This document shows, piece by piece, positions 21,155 to 29,573 of a DNA stretch of 64,000 nt. The position numbers and the translations under genes were made by a program. The stretch's first letter is position 1; every line of letters starts with the position of its first letter. Location: assembly GCF_025244845.1 (NCBI RefSeq), contig NZ_CP104264.1, positions 2,108,001-2,172,000 of the forward strand, written 5' to 3'. This DNA is from Arthrobacter sp. zg-Y1171. Its GTDB lineage: Bacteria > Actinomycetota > Actinomycetes > Actinomycetales > Micrococcaceae. The notes beneath the pieces are model-generated. The model was not told the DNA's origin. It did no database searches and worked only from the letters and a program-made list of their open reading frames with translations.

Positions 21155-23893
21155 GTGGCCGCAGAAGACACAACGGACATCCTGAGCGGGTTAACCAACC
21201 AGCTGCCGGACCGTGATCCCGAGGAAACCGCAGAATGGATCGAATCGCTCGACGAGCTGATCCGTTCGCAGGGCACTGAACGCGCGCAGTACATAATGCG
21301 TTCACTGCTCCAGCGCGCCGGTTCCCAGAGCGTGGGCGTGCCGATGGTAACCACCACCGACTACGTCAACACCATCCCGGTTGATCAGGAACCCGAATTC
21401 CCCGGTGACGAGGAAATCGAACGGCGATACCGCGCGTGGCTGCGTTGGAACGCCGCCATCATGGTGCACCGGGCCCAGCGCCCGGGCATCGGCGTCGGCG
21501 GCCATATTTCAACGTACGCCGGAGCAGCGACCCTGTACGAAGTGGGCATGAACCACTTCTTCCGGGGCAAGGACCACCCGGGCGGCGGAGACCAGATTTA
21601 CTTCCAGGGTCACGCCTCCCCCGGCATGTATGCCCGCGCCTTCCTCGAAGGCCGCCTGTCCGAAGAGGACATGGACGGCTTCCGCCAGGAGAAGTCCCGC
21701 GAGGGGCATGCACTGTCCTCCTACCCGCATCCGCGCAGCATGCCGGACTTCTGGGAATTCCCGACGGTTTCCATGGGCATTGGTCCCATGAACGCCATCT
21801 ACCAGGCACAGTCCAACCGCTACCTGCAGAACCGCGGCATCAAGGACACTTCCGAGCAGCATGTTTGGGCGTTCCTTGGCGACGGAGAAATGGACGAGCC
21901 CGAATCGCGCGGCCTGCTCCAGCTCGCCGCCAATGACAAGCTCGACAACCTGACCTTCGTGATCAACTGCAACCTGCAGCGCCTCGACGGCCCGGTCCGC
22001 GGCAACGGCAAGATCATGCAGGAACTGGAAGCCTTCTTCCGAGGCGCAGGCTGGAATGTCATCAAGGTTGTCTGGGGCCGCGAGTGGGATGACCTGCTCC
22101 AGCGCGACAAGGACGGCTCGCTGGTGGACATCATGAATGCCACCCCCGACGGCGACTACCAGACCTACAAGGCCGAGTCCGGCGGATTTGTGCGCGACCA
22201 CTTCTTCGGCAAGACCCCGGAGACCAAGGAACTCGTTGCCAACCTGACCGACGAGGAAATCTGGAACCTCAAGCGCGGCGGCCACGACTACCGCAAGGTT
22301 TACGCCGCGTACAAGGCCGCCACGGAATTCAAGGGCGCGCCGACGGTCATCCTGGCCCACACGGTCAAGGGCTACGGCCTGGGCACGCACTTCGAGGGCC
22401 GCAACGCGACCCACCAGATGAAGAAGCTCACGCTCGATGACCTGAAGGCCTTCCGCGACCACCTGCGGATCCCGATCAGCGACGAGCAGCTCGAAGCCGA
22501 CCCGTACCAGCCGCCGTACTACAACCCGGGAGCGGATGCCCCCGAGATCAAGTACATGCTGGAACGCCGGCGCGAACTGGGCGGCAACGTCCCGGAACGC
22601 CGGGTAAAGCACGAACCCGTCCACCTTCCGGACGAGAAAGCCTACGAAGTAGCCAACCGGGGTTCCGGCAAGCAGCTGGCCGCCACGACCATGGCCTTCG
22701 TCCGCCTGCTCAAGGACCTGATGCGGGACAAGGAGTTCGGCAAGCGCATTGTGCCGATCATCCCCGATGAGGCCCGTACCTTCGGCATGGACTCGTTCTT
22801 CCCGACGGCAAAGATCTACAACCCCAAGGGGCAGAACTACCTGTCCGTGGACCGGGACCTCGTCCTGGCCTACAAGGAATCCCCGCAGGGCCAGATTGTG
22901 CACGTCGGCATCAACGAGGCCGGCTCGATTGCGGCGTTCACCGCGGCGGGCACGTCCTACGCCACGCACGGCGAGCCGCTGATCCCGGTCTACGTGTTCT
23001 ACTCGATGTTCGGCTTCCAGCGCACCGCCGACTACATCTGGGCGGCTACCGACCAGATGGCACGCGGGTTCCTGATCTCGGCTACCGCCGGCCGCACCAC
23101 CCTCACCGGTGAAGGCCTGCAGCACGCCGACGGCCACTCGCCGATCCTGGCCTCCACCAACCCCGCGGTGAAGACCTACGATCCGGCCTACGGCTACGAG
23201 ATCGGACACATTGTCCGCCACGGCCTCGAGGAGATGTACGGCCCGGATTCCAAGGATCCGAACGTCATCTACAACCTCATGGTCTACAACGAGCCGATCC
23301 AGCAGCCCAAGGCCCCCGAGGACCTGGACGTGGAAGGCATCATCAAGGGTATCTACCTGCTCGCACCGGCAAAGATCGACGGACCCCGCACCCAGCTGCT
23401 GGCCTCCGGTGTTGCCGTGCCGTGGGCCTTGGAAGCCCAGAAGCTCCTTGCCGAGGACTGGGGTGTTTCGGCCGATGTCTGGTCCGTGACCTCCTGGAAC
23501 GAACTTCGCCGCGACGGCCTCGCCGCCGAGGAGGAAGCCTTCCTGAACCCCGGCTCTGAGCCGCGGGTACCCTTCGTCACCCAGCAGCTGGCCGGTGCCA
23601 CCGGCCCGATTGTTGCCTCCACGGACTACATGAAGGCCGTACCGGACCAGATCCGCCAGTTCCTGCCGAACGAATTCGCCACCCTCGGTGCCGACGACTT
23701 CGGTTTTGCGGACACGCGTGCAGCTGCTCGCCGGTACTTCAAGATCGACAGCCACTCGATGGTGGTGCGGGCATTGGAGATGCTCGCCCGCCGCGGTGAA
23801 GTCGACGCCAATGCCCCCAAGGAGGCAATCGAGAAGTACCACCTGCTGGACGTCAACGCCGGCACCAGCGGAAACGCCGGCGGCGACGCCTAG
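21155..23893 (+). CDS. aceE: Pyruvate dehydrogenase E1 component, homodimeric type
   Basis: This 912-residue thiamine-diphosphate enzyme decarboxylates pyruvate and acetylates the lipoyl domains of E2. The single-chain form is the one used by actinobacteria. Diagnostic segments are [17 protein letters not shown], the ThDP motif [14 protein letters not shown] ending in [14 protein letters not shown], and the pyrimidine-side [19 protein letters not shown]. The GTG at 21155 is used, since residues VAAEDT fit the family start and GAGAGAGG lies at good distance; a TTG two codons upstream is less likely. It is monocistronic and ends in a strong terminator. It supplies acetyl-CoA to the fatty-acid operon that follows. 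Confidence 0.97.
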
Positions 23894-23923
23894 GTAATCC
23901 GCCGGTCCTCGAACTCGGGGAAC

Positions 23924-23963
23924 ATGAAAAGGAACCGCCGCATCTGCGGCGGTTCCTTTTCAT
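23924..23963 (+). terminator. Terminator of aceE
   Basis: An 18-bp perfect stem (23924-23941 with 23946-23963, loop ATCT) has an A-rich base on the left and TTTTCATTT on the right. Confidence 0.95.
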
Positions 23964-23981
23964 TTGGCGGCCCCGTGTTGA

Positions 23982-24412
23982 CCTGACTGGGAATCCATAC
24001 GGATTTCGCGCAATCCCCGCCGTCCGGGCGTCCGCCAGCTGCTGCATTTCGGCGCGAGCGACGTGCTGCCCCTGAACGGCAGCGGGCAGGGCGAAAAGGA
24101 CCCGGGCCTGTTACTGGCCCTGGCCCGCTTCGGCCGGACATCCTGCATAGTGCTGGGGCAGGACCGGGAACGCGGAACAGGACAGGCTGCTCTGGGACCG
24201 GCTTCGCTCCGGGAGGCACGCCGCTGGCCGCCCACGGGATTGTGGACCACACGGTGGCGGAACTGCCAGATGCCGCCGAGGAGGCACCCGAATTCTGCCG
24301 GCGGATGGCCCGGGCCGTGGAATACGAGCTGGCCTCGCTTCGCGCCGTTCCGCCGGACGAGCGGCTGGCACGGCGCACGGAGCGATTCCGGCGGCTGGGA
24401 TCGGCGCTGTAG
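23982..24412 (+). pseudogene. Remnant of an acetyl/acyl-CoA carboxylase carboxyltransferase gene
   Basis: Two fragments in different frames survive. From 23982, in the frame of 24000, the translation contains ESIRISRNPRRPGVRQLL and then LNGSGQGEKDPGLLLALARF and CIVLGQDR. This resembles the start of an AccA-type carboxyltransferase domain. From about 24228, in the frame of the TAG at 24410, it contains AAHGIVDHTVAELPDAAEE and FCRRMARAVEYELASL, like the end of the same domain. The 150-200 residues normally between them, and any start codon and N-terminal half, are absent. The frames differ, so the product cannot be made. The family call is by motif resemblance. The rest of the 662-base gap holds only the aceE terminator and the fasR upstream region. 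Confidence 0.65.
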
Positions 24413-24501
24413 TACCGCTGTCACTGCCCCCGGGCCGGCATGGGCAGTAACCGGGCGGCAGCCGGGAACGATGTGAAACCCAAGCTGCCCGCCTAGCCAA
24501 C

Positions 24502-24518
24502 TTGTAGCCTTCACACAA
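24502..24518. promoter_or_regulatory. 17-bp TTGTAG-N5-ACACAA element upstream of fasR
   Basis: The sequence TTGTAGCCTTCACACAA matches the perfect inverted repeat upstream of fabD at 13 of 17 positions or better, including CTTGTAG and CTTC in the same register. Its centre is about 47 bases before the predicted fasR transcript start, a position typical for an activator site. I infer a FasR operator. Confidence 0.55.
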
Positions 24519-24543
24519 AATAGCGGTTCACTCGTGCAGGCCG

Positions 24544-24549
24544 TAAGCT
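24544..24549 (+). promoter_or_regulatory. Predicted leaderless promoter -10 of fasR
   Basis: TAAGCT lies seven bases before the ATG at 24557. No Shine-Dalgarno sequence at usable spacing is present, and no -35 box is seen, as expected for activator-dependent transcription. Confidence 0.5.
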
Positions 24550-24556
24550 CGCAGGT

Positions 24557-25780
24557 ATGCCAGTGCGTCCCAATACGTCCGCTGCCTCAGCGCCGCCGGA
24601 AGCAGACCAGCCCACCGTCGAGCGCCTGAAAGCGAATATCGGCAGGCTTTCGACTGCCACCCTGCAGCAGCTGGACATTTCCCTGCCGTGGTACCGGGGG
24701 CTGCGCCCGGACGAGCGCTCGGCACTGGGAATGGTTGCACAGAAGGGCATCGCGTCCTTCGTGAACTGGTACCAGCGTCCTGCCTCGCCCGCCTGGGTGC
24801 TCAGCGACGTCTTCGGCACCGCCCCTACCGAGCTCACCCGCTCGATCAGCCTGCAGAAGGCCCTCCAGCTGATCCGGGTGGTGGTCCAGGTGGTCGAGGA
24901 CCGGGTGCCGGAGCTGGCTGGCAGCGAGGTCCAGTCCAAACTGCGCGAAGCGGTGCTGCGCTATTCGCGTGAAGTGGCCTTCGCCGCCGCCGATGTCTAT
25001 GCCCGTGCGGCCGAAACCCGGGGTGCCTGGGACACCCGGCTGGAGGCCCTTGTGGTCGACGCCATCCTGCGCGGCGAGAGTTCGGACGCGCTGCGCTCCC
25101 GGATTGCCGCCGTCGGCTGGAGCTCCGCGGCACCGGTCACCGTCATGGTGGGCGGCTCTCCTGCCGAAGCCAATGCCACATTCGTGAATGAACTCCGCCG
25201 GGCCACGGGCCGGCTGGCCGAGGACACCCTCGTGGGGATCCAGGGCGAGCGGCTGATCCTGGTCCTGGGCGGACTGGAGGACAAGGCCTTCTCCTACACC
25301 CGCCTGTCCGAACTCTTCGGTCCGGGACCGGTGGTGTACGGCCCGCCCGCACTCTCCCTTGTCGAGGCCGGCCCGTCCGCGCAGGCCGCGTTCGCCGGAC
25401 TCACCGCCGCCCGCGCCTGGCCGGCTGCACCACGCCCGGTGGCAGCTGACGACCTGTGGCCCGAGCGGGTGATGTCCGGGGATGACACCGCACGCAAGGC
25501 CCTGGTGGAAAGCATCTACACACCCCTGCTGGGTGCCTCCAACGGGCTGGCAGAGACCCTTAGCGCGTACCTCTCGCTGGGCCATTCCCTGGAGGCCACG
25601 GCACGTGAACTCTTCGTCCATGCCAATACGGTCCGCTACCGCCTGCGGAGGGTCTGCGATGTGACCGGATGGGACCCGATGCTGCCCCGCGAAGCGTTCG
25701 TACTGCAGACCGCGCTGGTGGTCGGACGCCTGGCACCGGCCGGAAAAGCCGCCCCCGAGAAGCCCGCCGTCCGCCTCTGA
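24557..25780 (+). CDS. fasR: PucR/CdaR-type regulator of fatty acid synthesis, FasR-like
   Basis: The 407-residue protein has a long helical N-terminal region, a weak GGDEF-like central domain (about residues 170-280) and a C-terminal PucR helix-turn-helix. The latter reads LSLGHSLEATARELFVHAN then TVRYRLRRVCDVTGW. This layout and the position directly upstream of fabD match FasR, the activator of fatty-acid synthase genes in Streptomyces and Mycobacterium. It would sense acyl-CoA supply; ligand identity here is inference. The ATG at 24557 coincides with a predicted leaderless transcript start. A 17-bp element is shared by its own promoter and the fabD promoter, which suggests autoregulation. 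Confidence 0.88.
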   Translation: MPVRPNTSAASAPPEADQPTVERLKANIGRLSTATLQQLDISLPWYRGLRPDERSALGMVAQKGIASFVNWYQRPASPAWVLSDVFGTAPTELTRSISLQKALQLIRVVVQVVEDRVPELAGSEVQSKLREAVLRYSREVAFAAADVYARAAETRGAWDTRLEALVVDAILRGESSDALRSRIAAVGWSSAAPVTVMVGGSPAEANATFVNELRRATGRLAEDTLVGIQGERLILVLGGLEDKAFSYTRLSELFGPGPVVYGPPALSLVEAGPSAQAAFAGLTAARAWPAAPRPVAADDLWPERVMSGDDTARKALVESIYTPLLGASNGLAETLSAYLSLGHSLEATARELFVHANTVRYRLRRVCDVTGWDPMLPREAFVLQTALVVGRLAPAGKAAPEKPAVRL

Positions 25781-25805
25781 ACCCTGCCCAGGCGCCGTCG
25801 TTGGC

Positions 25806-25822
25806 TTGTAGACTTCCTACAA
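25806..25822. promoter_or_regulatory. Perfect inverted repeat TTGTAG-N5-CTACAA upstream of fabD
   Basis: The 6-5-6 repeat TTGTAGACTTCCTACAA ends 67 bases before the fabD GTG. The same core occurs upstream of fasR. It is the best candidate in the window for the FasR binding site controlling the fab operon. Confidence 0.6.
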
Positions 25823-25889
25823 AGGCGTCCGGGGAGCTTGGTCTACGCAAACACCCGGTCCCGTCCCCTATCTTTGGAAAGCTGTATAC

Positions 25890-26843
25890 GTGCTTGCAAT
25901 CGTCTGCCCCGGCCAGGGGTCCCAAACGCCAGGATTCCTCTCACCGTGGCTGGAACTGCCCGGCGTACGGGATCACCTTTCCGCGCTGAGCGACGTCGCC
26001 GGCCTGGACCTCATTGCCCACGGCACGGTCTCCGACGAGGAAACCATCAAGGACACCGCCGTCGCCCAGCCCCTGATCGTTGCCGCGGGCCTGATGGCCG
26101 CCCGGCTGCTGCTGGAGCCCTCGGCACTGACATCCTCCACCGTCCTGGCCGGCCACTCGGTCGGCGAGATCACCGCCTCCGCCATCGCCGGTGCGCTGCC
26201 GGAAAACGACGCCCTGGTGTTTGTCCGGGAACGGGCCAACGCCATGGCACGCGCCGCAGCGGTTGAGCCCACGGGCATGAGCGCCATTCTGGGCGGGGAT
26301 CCCGACGACGTGGCCGCCGTGCTGGAAGCCGCAGGGCTCACGGCGGCGAACGCCAACGGCGGCGGGCAGACCGTGGCGGCCGGGACGCACAACCAGCTCG
26401 AGGTACTCACCGCAGCACCGCCGGCCAAGGCACGGGTTATTCCGTTGAAGGTCGCCGGGGCGTTCCACACCTCCCACATGGCCCCCGCCGTGACTGTCCT
26501 GGAAGCACTGCGTCCCTCCCTCACCCCGCAGGCGCCGCTGGCCACCCTGCTCTCCAACCGCGACGGCGCCGCAGTGGTGTCCGGTGACGCCAACCTTGAC
26601 AGCCTCATCGCCCAGGTATCCCGCCCGGTACGGTGGGACCTCTGCATGGAGAACATGCTCGGCATGGGCGTGACCGGCCTGCTGGAACTGCCGCCGGCAG
26701 GAACCCTCACCGGACTGGCACGCCGCGGCATGAAGGGCATACCGACACTCGCCCTGAAATCCCCAGAAGATCTAACCGCTGCCCGGGAGTTCATCCGTGA
26801 GCATTCCGGAACGGCAGCAACAACCGGAGAAGGTAACGCGTGA
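25890..26843 (+). CDS. fabD: Malonyl-CoA:ACP transacylase
   Basis: The enzyme loads malonyl units from CoA onto acyl carrier protein for type II fatty acid synthesis. It has 317 residues. The sequence opens with the family CPGQGSQTPGF. The serine nucleophile lies in AGHSVGEITA (about residue 90), and the catalytic His is in AFHTSHMAP (about residue 193). The start is GTG at 25890, eight bases after GGAAAG. The last four bases overlap the start of fabH (GTGA), so the two are translationally coupled at the head of the fabD-fabH-acpP-fabF operon. Confidence 0.96.
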   Translation: MLAIVCPGQGSQTPGFLSPWLELPGVRDHLSALSDVAGLDLIAHGTVSDEETIKDTAVAQPLIVAAGLMAARLLLEPSALTSSTVLAGHSVGEITASAIAGALPENDALVFVRERANAMARAAAVEPTGMSAILGGDPDDVAAVLEAAGLTAANANGGGQTVAAGTHNQLEVLTAAPPAKARVIPLKVAGAFHTSHMAPAVTVLEALRPSLTPQAPLATLLSNRDGAAVVSGDANLDSLIAQVSRPVRWDLCMENMLGMGVTGLLELPPAGTLTGLARRGMKGIPTLALKSPEDLTAAREFIREHSGTAATTGEGNA

Positions 26844-27901
26844 GCACGCCCACCCTGAAGCAGTCCCCCGTCAACGAATTCAGCCGAATCCACGGCATCG
26901 GCGCCTTCCGCCCCGACGTCATTGTCAGCAACGACGACGTCTGCCAGTGGATCGATTCCTCCGATGAGTGGATCCGCCAGCGCACCGGCATCGTGACCCG
27001 GCACCGTGCGGACAAGGGCACGTCCGTGGTGGACATGGCAGAGGCTGCCGGACGCGAGGCGTTGAAGAACGCCGGCATCGAGGGATCCCAGCTCGGCGCC
27101 GTCATCGTCTCCACCGTGACCCACCCCTACGCGACGCCTTCCGCGGCCACCCAGATCACCGAGCGGCTGGGCGCGACGCCGGCACCGGCCTACGATGTTT
27201 CCGCCGCGTGCGCCGGGTACTGCTACGGCATTGCCCAGGCAGACGCGCTGGTCCGCTCCGGCGCCGCCACCTACGTGCTGGTCATCGGCGTGGAAAAGCT
27301 TTCGGACTTCATCGACAACACCGAACGCACCATCTCCTTCCTGCTCGGCGACGGTGCCGGCGCCGTCGTCGTCGGCCCCTCCGACACCCCCGGAATCGCG
27401 CCCTCCGTCTGGGGATCCGACGGCAGCAAGTCCGGTGCCATCGGCATGACCCACTCCATGCTGGATGTCCGGGAACTTTCCCTCGCCGCCGAGGCCGACG
27501 GCGGCATGAGCCCCGCGGACCTCTCCGACCGGGACACCAAGCTCTGGCCCACCCTGCGCCAGGACGGCCAGACGGTCTTCCGCTGGGCCGTATGGGAGAT
27601 GGCCAAGGCTGCCCAGCAGGCGCTCGACGCCGCCGGGATCACTGCCGAGGATCTCTCCGCCTTCGTGCCGCACCAGGCCAATATGCGCATCATTGACGAA
27701 ATGGCGAAGCAGTTGAAGCTGCCCGAGTCAGTCATCATTGCCCGCGACATCGCCGATGCGGGAAACACCTCGGCCGCGTCCATTCCGCTGGCCACCTACC
27801 GCCTGCTGCAGGAGCACCCCGAACTGAGCGGCAAGCTGTCGCTGCAGATCGGCTTCGGTGCCGGCCTTGTGTTCGGCGCGCAGGTAGTTGTCCTTCCCTA
27901 G
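26840..27901 (+). CDS. fabH: 3-oxoacyl-ACP synthase III (ketoacyl-ACP synthase III)
   Basis: The condensing enzyme starts each fatty acid from an acyl-CoA primer and malonyl-ACP. In this group branched-chain primers from leucine, isoleucine and valine give iso- and anteiso-fatty acids. It has 353 residues, slightly longer than usual because of a short N-terminal extension. The catalytic triad is visible: Cys in SAACAGYCYG, His in VPHQANMRI and Asn in DAGNTSAASIP. The start GTG overlaps the fabD stop. The gap to acpP is 110 bases. Confidence 0.96.
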   Translation: MSTPTLKQSPVNEFSRIHGIGAFRPDVIVSNDDVCQWIDSSDEWIRQRTGIVTRHRADKGTSVVDMAEAAGREALKNAGIEGSQLGAVIVSTVTHPYATPSAATQITERLGATPAPAYDVSAACAGYCYGIAQADALVRSGAATYVLVIGVEKLSDFIDNTERTISFLLGDGAGAVVVGPSDTPGIAPSVWGSDGSKSGAIGMTHSMLDVRELSLAAEADGGMSPADLSDRDTKLWPTLRQDGQTVFRWAVWEMAKAAQQALDAAGITAEDLSAFVPHQANMRIIDEMAKQLKLPESVIIARDIADAGNTSAASIPLATYRLLQEHPELSGKLSLQIGFGAGLVFGAQVVVLP

Positions 27902-28011: not shown

Positions 28012-28257
28012 ATGGCTAGCAAAGAAGAAATCCTGGCCGGCCTCGCCGAGATCGTCAATGAAGAGACGGGTCTGGCCCCCGAGGCCGTTGAGCTGGACAA
28101 GTCCTTCACCGATGACCTGGACATCGACTCCATTTCCATGATGACCATCGTCGTCAACGCCGAAGAAAAGTTCGGCGTGCGCATCCCGGACGAAGAGGTC
28201 AAGAACCTGAAGACCGTCGGCGACGCCGTGGACTTCATCTCCAACGCCCAGGCATAA
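28012..28257 (+). CDS. acpP: Acyl carrier protein
   Basis: This 81-residue acidic four-helix protein carries the growing acyl chain on a 4'-phosphopantetheine arm attached to Ser40 in the motif DDLDIDSIS. The length and charge are typical. ATG at 28012 has a strong AAGGAG seven bases upstream, the best ribosome-binding site of the operon, in line with the high level needed for this protein. It lies between fabH and fabF. Confidence 0.97.
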   Translation: MASKEEILAGLAEIVNEETGLAPEAVELDKSFTDDLDIDSISMMTIVVNAEEKFGVRIPDEEVKNLKTVGDAVDFISNAQA

Positions 28258-28337: not shown

Positions 28338-29573
28338 ATGGCCCGCAAAGTAGTCATCACAGGCCTCGGAGCGACCACGCCCATCGGCGGGGACGTTCCA
28401 ACCATGTGGAAGAACGCACTGCAGGGTGTCTCCGGCGCCCGTACCCTGGAAGACGAATGGGTGGAGAAGTACTCGCTGCCCGTGACCTTTGCAGCGCGGG
28501 CCACCACTCCCGCTTCGGAAGTCCTTTCCCGCGTCGAAGCCAAGCGGATGGACCCCTCCACGCAGTTCGCCGTCGTCGCGGCGCGCGAAGCCTGGGCCGA
28601 TTCCGGCCTCGCAGACATTGACCACGACCGGCTTGCCGTCTCCTTCGCCACCGGTATCGGCGGCATCTGGACCCTGCTCGACGCCTGGGACACCCTGCGC
28701 GAAAAGGGACCGCGGCGGGTACTGCCCATGACCGTTCCGATGCTGATGCCCAACGGCCCGTCCGCCGCGGTCAGCCTCGACCTGGGTGCCCGCGCCGGCG
28801 CCCACACACCCGTCTCAGCCTGCGCCTCCGGAACCGAGGCCCTCCACCAGGGCCTGGACATGATCCGCTCCGGCAAAGCCGACATCGTCGTCGCCGGCGG
28901 CGCGGAAGCCTGCATTCACCCGATGCCCTTGGCATCCTTCGCCTCCATGCAGGCCCTGTCCAAGCGCAACGATGATCCCCAGCGTGCCTCCCGCCCCTAT
29001 GACAAGGACCGCGACGGCTTCGTGATGGGTGAGGGCGCCGGTGCGCTGGTGCTCGAAAGCGAAGAGCACGCCCTGGCCCGCGGAGCACGGATTTACGCCG
29101 AACTTGCAGGCACGGCCGTCACCGCCGACGCGTACCACATCACCGCCCCGGACCCCGAGGGCCTCGGCGCCACCAGGGCCCTGAAGTCCGCTCTCTTTGA
29201 TGCCCGGGCGCAGGCCGAGGACGTAGTCCACGTGAACGCGCACGCCACCTCCACCCCGGTGGGCGACAAGCCGGAATACACCGCGCTGAAGGCTGCCCTG
29301 GGCAGTGCCCTCGACGGAGTTGCCGTGTCAGCGACCAAGTCGCAGATGGGCCACCTGCTGGGTGCCTCCGGTGCAGTCGAAGCCGTCCTGACGGCTTTGG
29401 CGGTCTACGAGCGCCAGGCGCCGGCCACGATCAACCTGGAAAACCAGGATCCGGAGATTCCGCTCGACGTGGTGACCTCCAGCCGCCAGCTGCGCGGCGG
29501 AGACATCGTGGCGCTGAGCAATTCCTTCGGCTTCGGCGGGCACAACGCCGTCGCCGTGCTGCGCAGCCGCTAA
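28338..29573 (+). CDS. fabF: 3-oxoacyl-ACP synthase II
   Basis: This elongating condensing enzyme has 411 residues and the full Cys-His-His set: SACASGTEAL (nucleophile near residue 165), NAHATSTPVGD, and KSQMGHLLGASGAVE. It extends acyl-ACP with malonyl-ACP. ATG at 28338 follows GAGAG. The 80-base gap after acpP contains a GGCGGCCGC/GCGGCCGCC hairpin but no T-tract, so read-through is likely. The operon ends here with a long terminator. Several actinobacteria have a carboxyltransferase gene near this operon; here only a decayed copy upstream of fasR is seen. Confidence 0.97.
   Translation: MARKVVITGLGATTPIGGDVPTMWKNALQGVSGARTLEDEWVEKYSLPVTFAARATTPASEVLSRVEAKRMDPSTQFAVVAAREAWADSGLADIDHDRLAVSFATGIGGIWTLLDAWDTLREKGPRRVLPMTVPMLMPNGPSAAVSLDLGARAGAHTPVSACASGTEALHQGLDMIRSGKADIVVAGGAEACIHPMPLASFASMQALSKRNDDPQRASRPYDKDRDGFVMGEGAGALVLESEEHALARGARIYAELAGTAVTADAYHITAPDPEGLGATRALKSALFDARAQAEDVVHVNAHATSTPVGDKPEYTALKAALGSALDGVAVSATKSQMGHLLGASGAVEAVLTALAVYERQAPATINLENQDPEIPLDVVTSSRQLRGGDIVALSNSFGFGGHNAVAVLRSR

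Follow-up and report, generated by a model that had tools for sequence, protein, structure and literature searches.

The window analyzed here is a stretch of 64,000 nucleotides from Arthrobacter sp. zg-Y1171 (contig NZ_CP104264.1) in which fasR, the gene of a PucR-type regulator, directly precedes the fabD operon, an order that recurs in many relatives. Its relevant features are the following (window positions, all on the + strand):

24502..24518, +, predicted FasR operator at fasR, TTGTAGCCTTCACACAA; imperfect palindrome with exact TTGT-N9-ACAA core
24544..24549, +, TAAGCT, predicted -10 hexamer of fasR; 34 bases downstream of the operator center
24557..25780, +, fasR, encoding a PucR-type regulator with GGDEF-like and PucR HTH domains; orthologous to MabR of Mycobacterium
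25806..25822, +, predicted FasR operator at fabD, TTGTAGACTTCCTACAA; perfect 6-5-6 palindrome
25838..25842, +, TTGGT within a conserved GAGCTTGGT block, at a constant offset of 32 bases downstream of the fabD operator start
25875..25883, +, conserved TGGAAAGCT just ahead of fabD, read either as a ribosome-binding site or, if fabD is leaderless, as an extended -10; kept in loci L279 and L280
25890..26843, +, fabD
26840..27901, +, fabH
28012..28257, +, acpP (acyl carrier protein)
28338..29573, +, fabF

The fasR product carries a PucR C-terminal HTH and a GGDEF-like domain (PF13556, E 3.7e-19; PF17853, E 4e-10) and matches the two solved halves of MabR from Mycobacterium. By eye, the HTH stretch is closely similar, and residues 19-153 match the N-terminal MabR chain 9fb1_A (E 2.9e-21), a domain that has a globin-like fold in MabR. 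In six genomes of family f36 (G274, G294, G311, G327, G342, G353), the FasR match is interrupted around query residues 240-250 and splits into two stretches, which points to an insertion in the protein. A contig titled Vibrio cholerae strain 35D (WNZI01000002.1, locus L072) encodes a FasR 80% identical to that of the window; fasR and fabD are arranged there as in the window and both sites are present, and the contig's title or assembly is probably wrong. Upstream of the fasR promoter, the stretch 23980-24412 that follows a large frame ending at 23893 holds only short + strand frames and may contain a decayed gene.

A first-pass annotation of this DNA had described a perfect 6-5-6 inverted repeat upstream of fabD and a similar element in the same orientation upstream of fasR, each with a C directly before it and an A directly after it. 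Coordinates, strand and symmetry of the fabD copy as well as place, orientation and direct neighbors of the fasR copy are all borne out. The fasR copy differs from the palindrome TTGTAGN5CTACAA by two mismatches, whereas the core TTGT-N9-ACAA is exact in both, and its center lies 47 bases before the fasR ATG, the distance that had been given to a start predicted to be leaderless and that we likewise infer to be so. At up to two mismatches, the shared pattern TTGTAGNCTTCNNACAA matches the window twice against 0.05 expected, and at least two matches occurred in 0 of 100 shuffles, though this is a weak test because the pattern was picked after seeing the sites. A sigma-70 promoter scan of 23880-25950 gave no match.

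Motif abundance was considered as evidence and rejected because the reversed control pattern is as frequent or commoner throughout the genome: at up to two mismatches, the Arthrobacter genome holds 30 motif matches compared to 143 for the control, and the bare core 14 compared to 28, with similar per-genome numbers in relatives. The case therefore rests on the position and conservation of the sites rather than on their number. Exactly two mismatches are found at 26 places including fasR; three others were inspected by eye and none is claimed (3275409 and 3054670 lie inside coding-looking frames, 32868 just before a GntR-like frame). Both palindromes are very probably operators of the known FasR/MabR class.

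Conservation of the sites at fabD and fasR

The first-pass annotation had staked its proposal on conservation of the element upstream of orthologous genes. For fasR and fabD we built sets from 170 loci (30 + 80 + 60) that are nearly all from Micrococcaceae, with only L113 (Occultella) from outside, and merged duplicates. At fabD, all 145 unique upstream regions (145/145) carry a site with at most two mismatches, i.e., the absence that had been named as counter-evidence was not observed, and its start falls 83 (32 regions), 84 (82) or 85 (31) bases before the start codon. When the fasR-fabD interval was scored instead, 140 of 143 contained the site, compared to a mean of 0.66 and a maximum of 8 for permuted palindromes; in the three misses (L102, L143, L160), a perfect site sits at -83/-84, outside the interval scored. 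Our class-level set comprises 40 hand-picked loci of other families, 39 of them with fabD (L304 has none in the examined stretch). There, 32 of the 39 carry a site within two mismatches at -82 to -86, compared to no more than 3 for any of 59 permuted palindromes; at that position the palindrome is perfect in 5/39 and its core exact in 18/39. L300 and L325 show no match at -82 to -86 even at four mismatches, with the core of L325 at -99.

Downstream of the fabD operator, 25/39 loci outside the family have a TTSGT block at 32 bases from the operator start, compared to 8 of 780 background windows, and may represent a -35 region or a second contact. The hexamer TATCTT (25869-25874) was rejected as the fabD -10 given that TANNNT occurs at this offset in merely 15 of 140 regions, and no recognizable TANNNT stands at a fixed place before fabD in the family upstream regions. 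A leaderless fabD start would center the operator at about -76, compared to about -67 from the transcription start as reported for the S. coelicolor operator in the accessible part of PMC5541348.

The fasR copy is conserved more patchily. After exclusion of L112 (no fasR upstream) and L168 (overlapping frames, with a one-mismatch site at -85), a site within two mismatches was found in 97 of 146 unique family upstream regions (permuted palindromes: mean 1.25, maximum 20) and within one mismatch in 22 (permuted maximum 1), while 31 have nothing within three. With two of the 59 permuted palindromes, 20 and 18 of the 146 regions score within two mismatches and 93 and 77 within three, so that the fasR site is clear at zero to two mismatches only. 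Spacer length is sharply defined: the exact core with its nine-base spacer occurs in 100/146 family regions and in 21/40 regions outside the family, and any other spacer of 3 to 15 bases in at most one. Among the 21 is L316 of family f35, where fasR and fabD are divergent and apparently share one palindrome at -86 of fabD. The fasR operator is thus lineage-dependent, i.e., the expected conservation of this copy holds for much of the family and fails for part of it. That FasR controls its own gene is well supported by these patterns, and with the core so frequent, yet any site missing from 31 of the family regions, such self-control would be widespread but not universal.

Carboxylase and biotin genes and the geometry of their promoters

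The 3.42-Mb Arthrobacter genome contains four matches to TTGTAGN5CTACAA with at most one mismatch:

site 1, before fabD
site 2, before the biotin-carboxylase gene (accC)
site 3, between the carboxyltransferase gene (accD) and a divergent SDR gene, which is followed by a biotin ligase gene
site 4, upstream of bioY, with an ECF-type ATPase gene after bioY

Conservation at accC, accD and bioY was scored in 30 loci of 41 genomes each at up to two mismatches. The first-pass annotation had also suggested a search upstream of acc genes, and in Micrococcaceae this search was positive: the accC site is present in 28/30 loci (permuted maximum 2; misses G002 and G033, both of genus g3) and the accD site in 28/30 (permuted maximum 5; misses G002 and G013, the latter although FasR is present). 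The bioY site is found in 11/30 loci and absent from 19/30 (permuted maximum 1); in G009 and G019 it lies at or inside the assumed start, and in G099 and G145 a bioY-like frame is preceded by a perfect site. In L175, L366, L367 and L371, bioY is divergent from an ABC ATPase gene with a FasR-type site between them. By eye, many accD upstream regions of L219-L248 show a TTGTGC or TTGTAC block about 25-35 bases after the -10-like hexamer, possibly a leader element.

Outside the family, 350 bases upstream of accC were scanned in 28 loci, with at least 3 of the 28 genomes lacking a FasR match. None has a site within one mismatch and two, both of family f37, have one within two mismatches, which is also the permuted maximum. 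We therefore rejected a class-wide accC site, and this branch looks specific to Micrococcaceae. The operator itself belongs to a known class; the sites before carboxylase genes and bioY are, as predicted targets, what appears to be new. In the open-access literature, titles and abstract openings name no acc or bioY gene as target of a PucR-type FasR, which is weak evidence of novelty with subscription papers mostly outside this coverage.

The usual form of the actinobacterial -10 hexamer is TANNNT, and the operators keep fixed distances to it. From operator center to TANNNT we found 70 (21 loci) or 69 (6) bases at accC, i.e., in 27/28, 31 (25) or 32 (2) at accD, again in 27/28, and 31 (8) or 32 (1) at bioY, i.e., in 9/11, compared to a base rate of 0.014-0.015 per position for these three genes. 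At fasR, the distance is 34 (57), 33 (12) or 35 (5) bases, i.e., 33-35 in 74 of the 97 family regions with a site. With the transcription start counted 12 bases after the first base of the -10 hexamer, the operators would center near -43 to -46 at accD, bioY and fasR and near -82 at accC. A position around -46 is usual for activators. Among the 21 loci from other families with the core at fasR, the distance to TANNNT is instead 10 bases in 3 and 17-19 bases in 9; in these 12 the operator overlaps the core promoter, as would suit repression, so that the sign of self-control may be either.

A genus without clear fasR, the proposed regulon and its alternatives

A FasR match of E 1e-3 or better is found in 142 of 149 family genomes, with G118 matching only weakly, and all eight genomes without clear FasR belong to one genus, g3. 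There, fabD is preceded by a pyruvate dehydrogenase-like frame in six of eight loci and by a recombinase-like frame in two, with no fasR in between by eye. The perfect motif occurs in 0/8 of these genomes, and at -82 to -86 of fabD a site within three mismatches is found in 0/8 and within four in 1/8. The accC site is likewise missing in both loci scored from this genus (G002, G033) and the accD site in the single one (G002), while a GGAAAGCTG block before fabD is kept in g3 loci L279 and L280. The operators have been lost together with fasR in g3.

Taking sites, conservation, spacing, targets and this co-loss together, we consider it highly probable that FasR binds these palindromes, activates the fabD operon, controls itself and reaches the acc and, in part, bioY genes. 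A FasR dimer would bind the 17-bp palindromes flanking its own gene mainly via the half-sites TTGT and ACAA, which a nine-base spacer separates, with a preference for AG/CT on their inner side. From a position some 76 bases ahead of the fabD start, it would activate fabD-fabH-acpP-fabF, and from the fasR operator it would control its own gene. In Micrococcaceae, the regulon would extend to an acyl-CoA carboxylase through its biotin-carboxylase and carboxyltransferase genes and, in some of the family, also to bioY, the gene of the biotin importer. With acc, bioY and fab genes under FasR, malonyl-CoA supply, cofactor supply and chain start would be controlled together. A bolder model, which may equally well prove right or wrong, casts Micrococcaceae FasR as a master switch of malonyl-CoA making and fatty-acid start that co-activates both carboxylase subunits, the fab operon and, in some lineages, the biotin importer from two fixed geometries (near -43 to -46, or -76 to -82), with a sign of self-control possibly reversed between families.

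It is scarcely conceivable that the similarity reflects chance or plain relatedness of neighboring DNA. Whole upstream regions are indeed alike within one genus and the window holds only two copies, but alignment columns adjoining the fabD palindrome carry little information next to arms near 2 bits, permuted palindromes stay below the observed counts, and the site recurs at unlinked genes. A role of the inverted repeats as RNA hairpins or terminators, for which the fabD copy with its perfect 6-bp repeat and five-base loop would be suited, is most improbable: at accC, accD, bioY and fasR a conserved -10-like hexamer follows the repeat, which would thus not be transcribed from that promoter, a terminator scan of 23880-25950 lists neither site, and changes between the outer half-sites are tolerated while changes of spacer length are not. 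Another regulator, e.g., of biotin or carboxylase metabolism, could bind the palindrome with FasR as a mere neighbor, in line with three of the four best genomic sites lying at carboxylase or biotin genes and with a link between FasR and palindrome that is here drawn from sequence. We regard this as improbable and a biotin regulator in particular as an unlikely binder. The site tracks the fasR-fabD pair across many families whereas the accC site does not, sites are gone where fasR is gone, and the orthologue MabR has a published site of the same core and spacer. Moreover, a fragment of the biotin ligase (171 residues, start assumed) yields only the ligase domain, and the site TGAAC-N3-GTTCA that the accessible part of PMC3398298 predicts for BioQ, a predicted regulator of biotin genes in Actinobacteria and thus of the same phylum, is unlike the TTGT-N9-ACAA sites found here.

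Repression rather than activation by FasR, at least of its own gene, is a possibility that we find doubtful yet worth taking seriously. Speaking for it is the overlap of operator and core promoter in 12 of the 21 core-carrying loci from other families, whereas in Micrococcaceae the prevailing distance puts the operator center near -46, where activators usually bind, and both MabR and S. coelicolor FasR activate fabD according to the accessible portions of the published work. As a whole, FasR acting through the palindromes at fabD and at its own gene, as the first-pass annotation had suggested, is backed by conservation, spacer-length specificity, co-loss and the published MabR site, and remains our preferred, sequence-derived reading. 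For Arthrobacter and relatives, it yields an operator, a promoter geometry and a regulon of fatty-acid control that can be put to the test, and the constancy of the distances opens a way into the mechanism of transcription activation by a PucR-type protein.

Comparison with known regulators

Rv3208 of Mycobacterium is a TetR-type protein. It is this protein that bears the name FasR there, acts on the FAS-I operon and differs from MabR (accessible text of PMC5541348). The first-pass annotation had named FasR as a known activator in both Streptomyces and Mycobacterium; the mycobacterial orthologue is MabR.

MabR (Rv2242) has orthologous domains with solved structures and, as far as the accessible text of PMC5541348 goes, activates the Mycobacterium fasII operon from the recognition sequence TTTTGT(N)9ACAAAA, with sites reported at -87 and -147. 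Core and spacer are the same here, though neither window site has this longer form: the flanks are TT/AA for MabR, whereas the window sites have C before and one extra A after. MabR also differs in that it serves mycolic acid synthesis.

FasR (SCO2386) of S. coelicolor is likewise a PucR-type regulator, an activator encoded beside the fabD operon with an inverted-repeat operator. The same accessible sources describe it as a MabR orthologue recognizing highly similar repeats (PMC5541348) and as activator of fabDHPF (PMC7324645). Its target described there is the fab operon, while in Arthrobacter fasR, the carboxylase genes and bioY also have sites. In two f37 loci that we compared under S. coelicolor FasR, the fasR upstream region has no site within three mismatches.

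The wiring as such resembles that of Corynebacterium glutamicum, where FasR jointly controls acyl-CoA carboxylase (accBC, accD1) and fatty acid synthase genes (accessible part of PMC6460773). That protein is a repressor of another family (TetR-type according to a title cited there), and the likeness is in wiring only. In Micrococcaceae, a PucR-type regulator would connect carboxylase and fatty-acid synthase genes in the way that a TetR-type one does in Corynebacterium, and would include biotin uptake as well.
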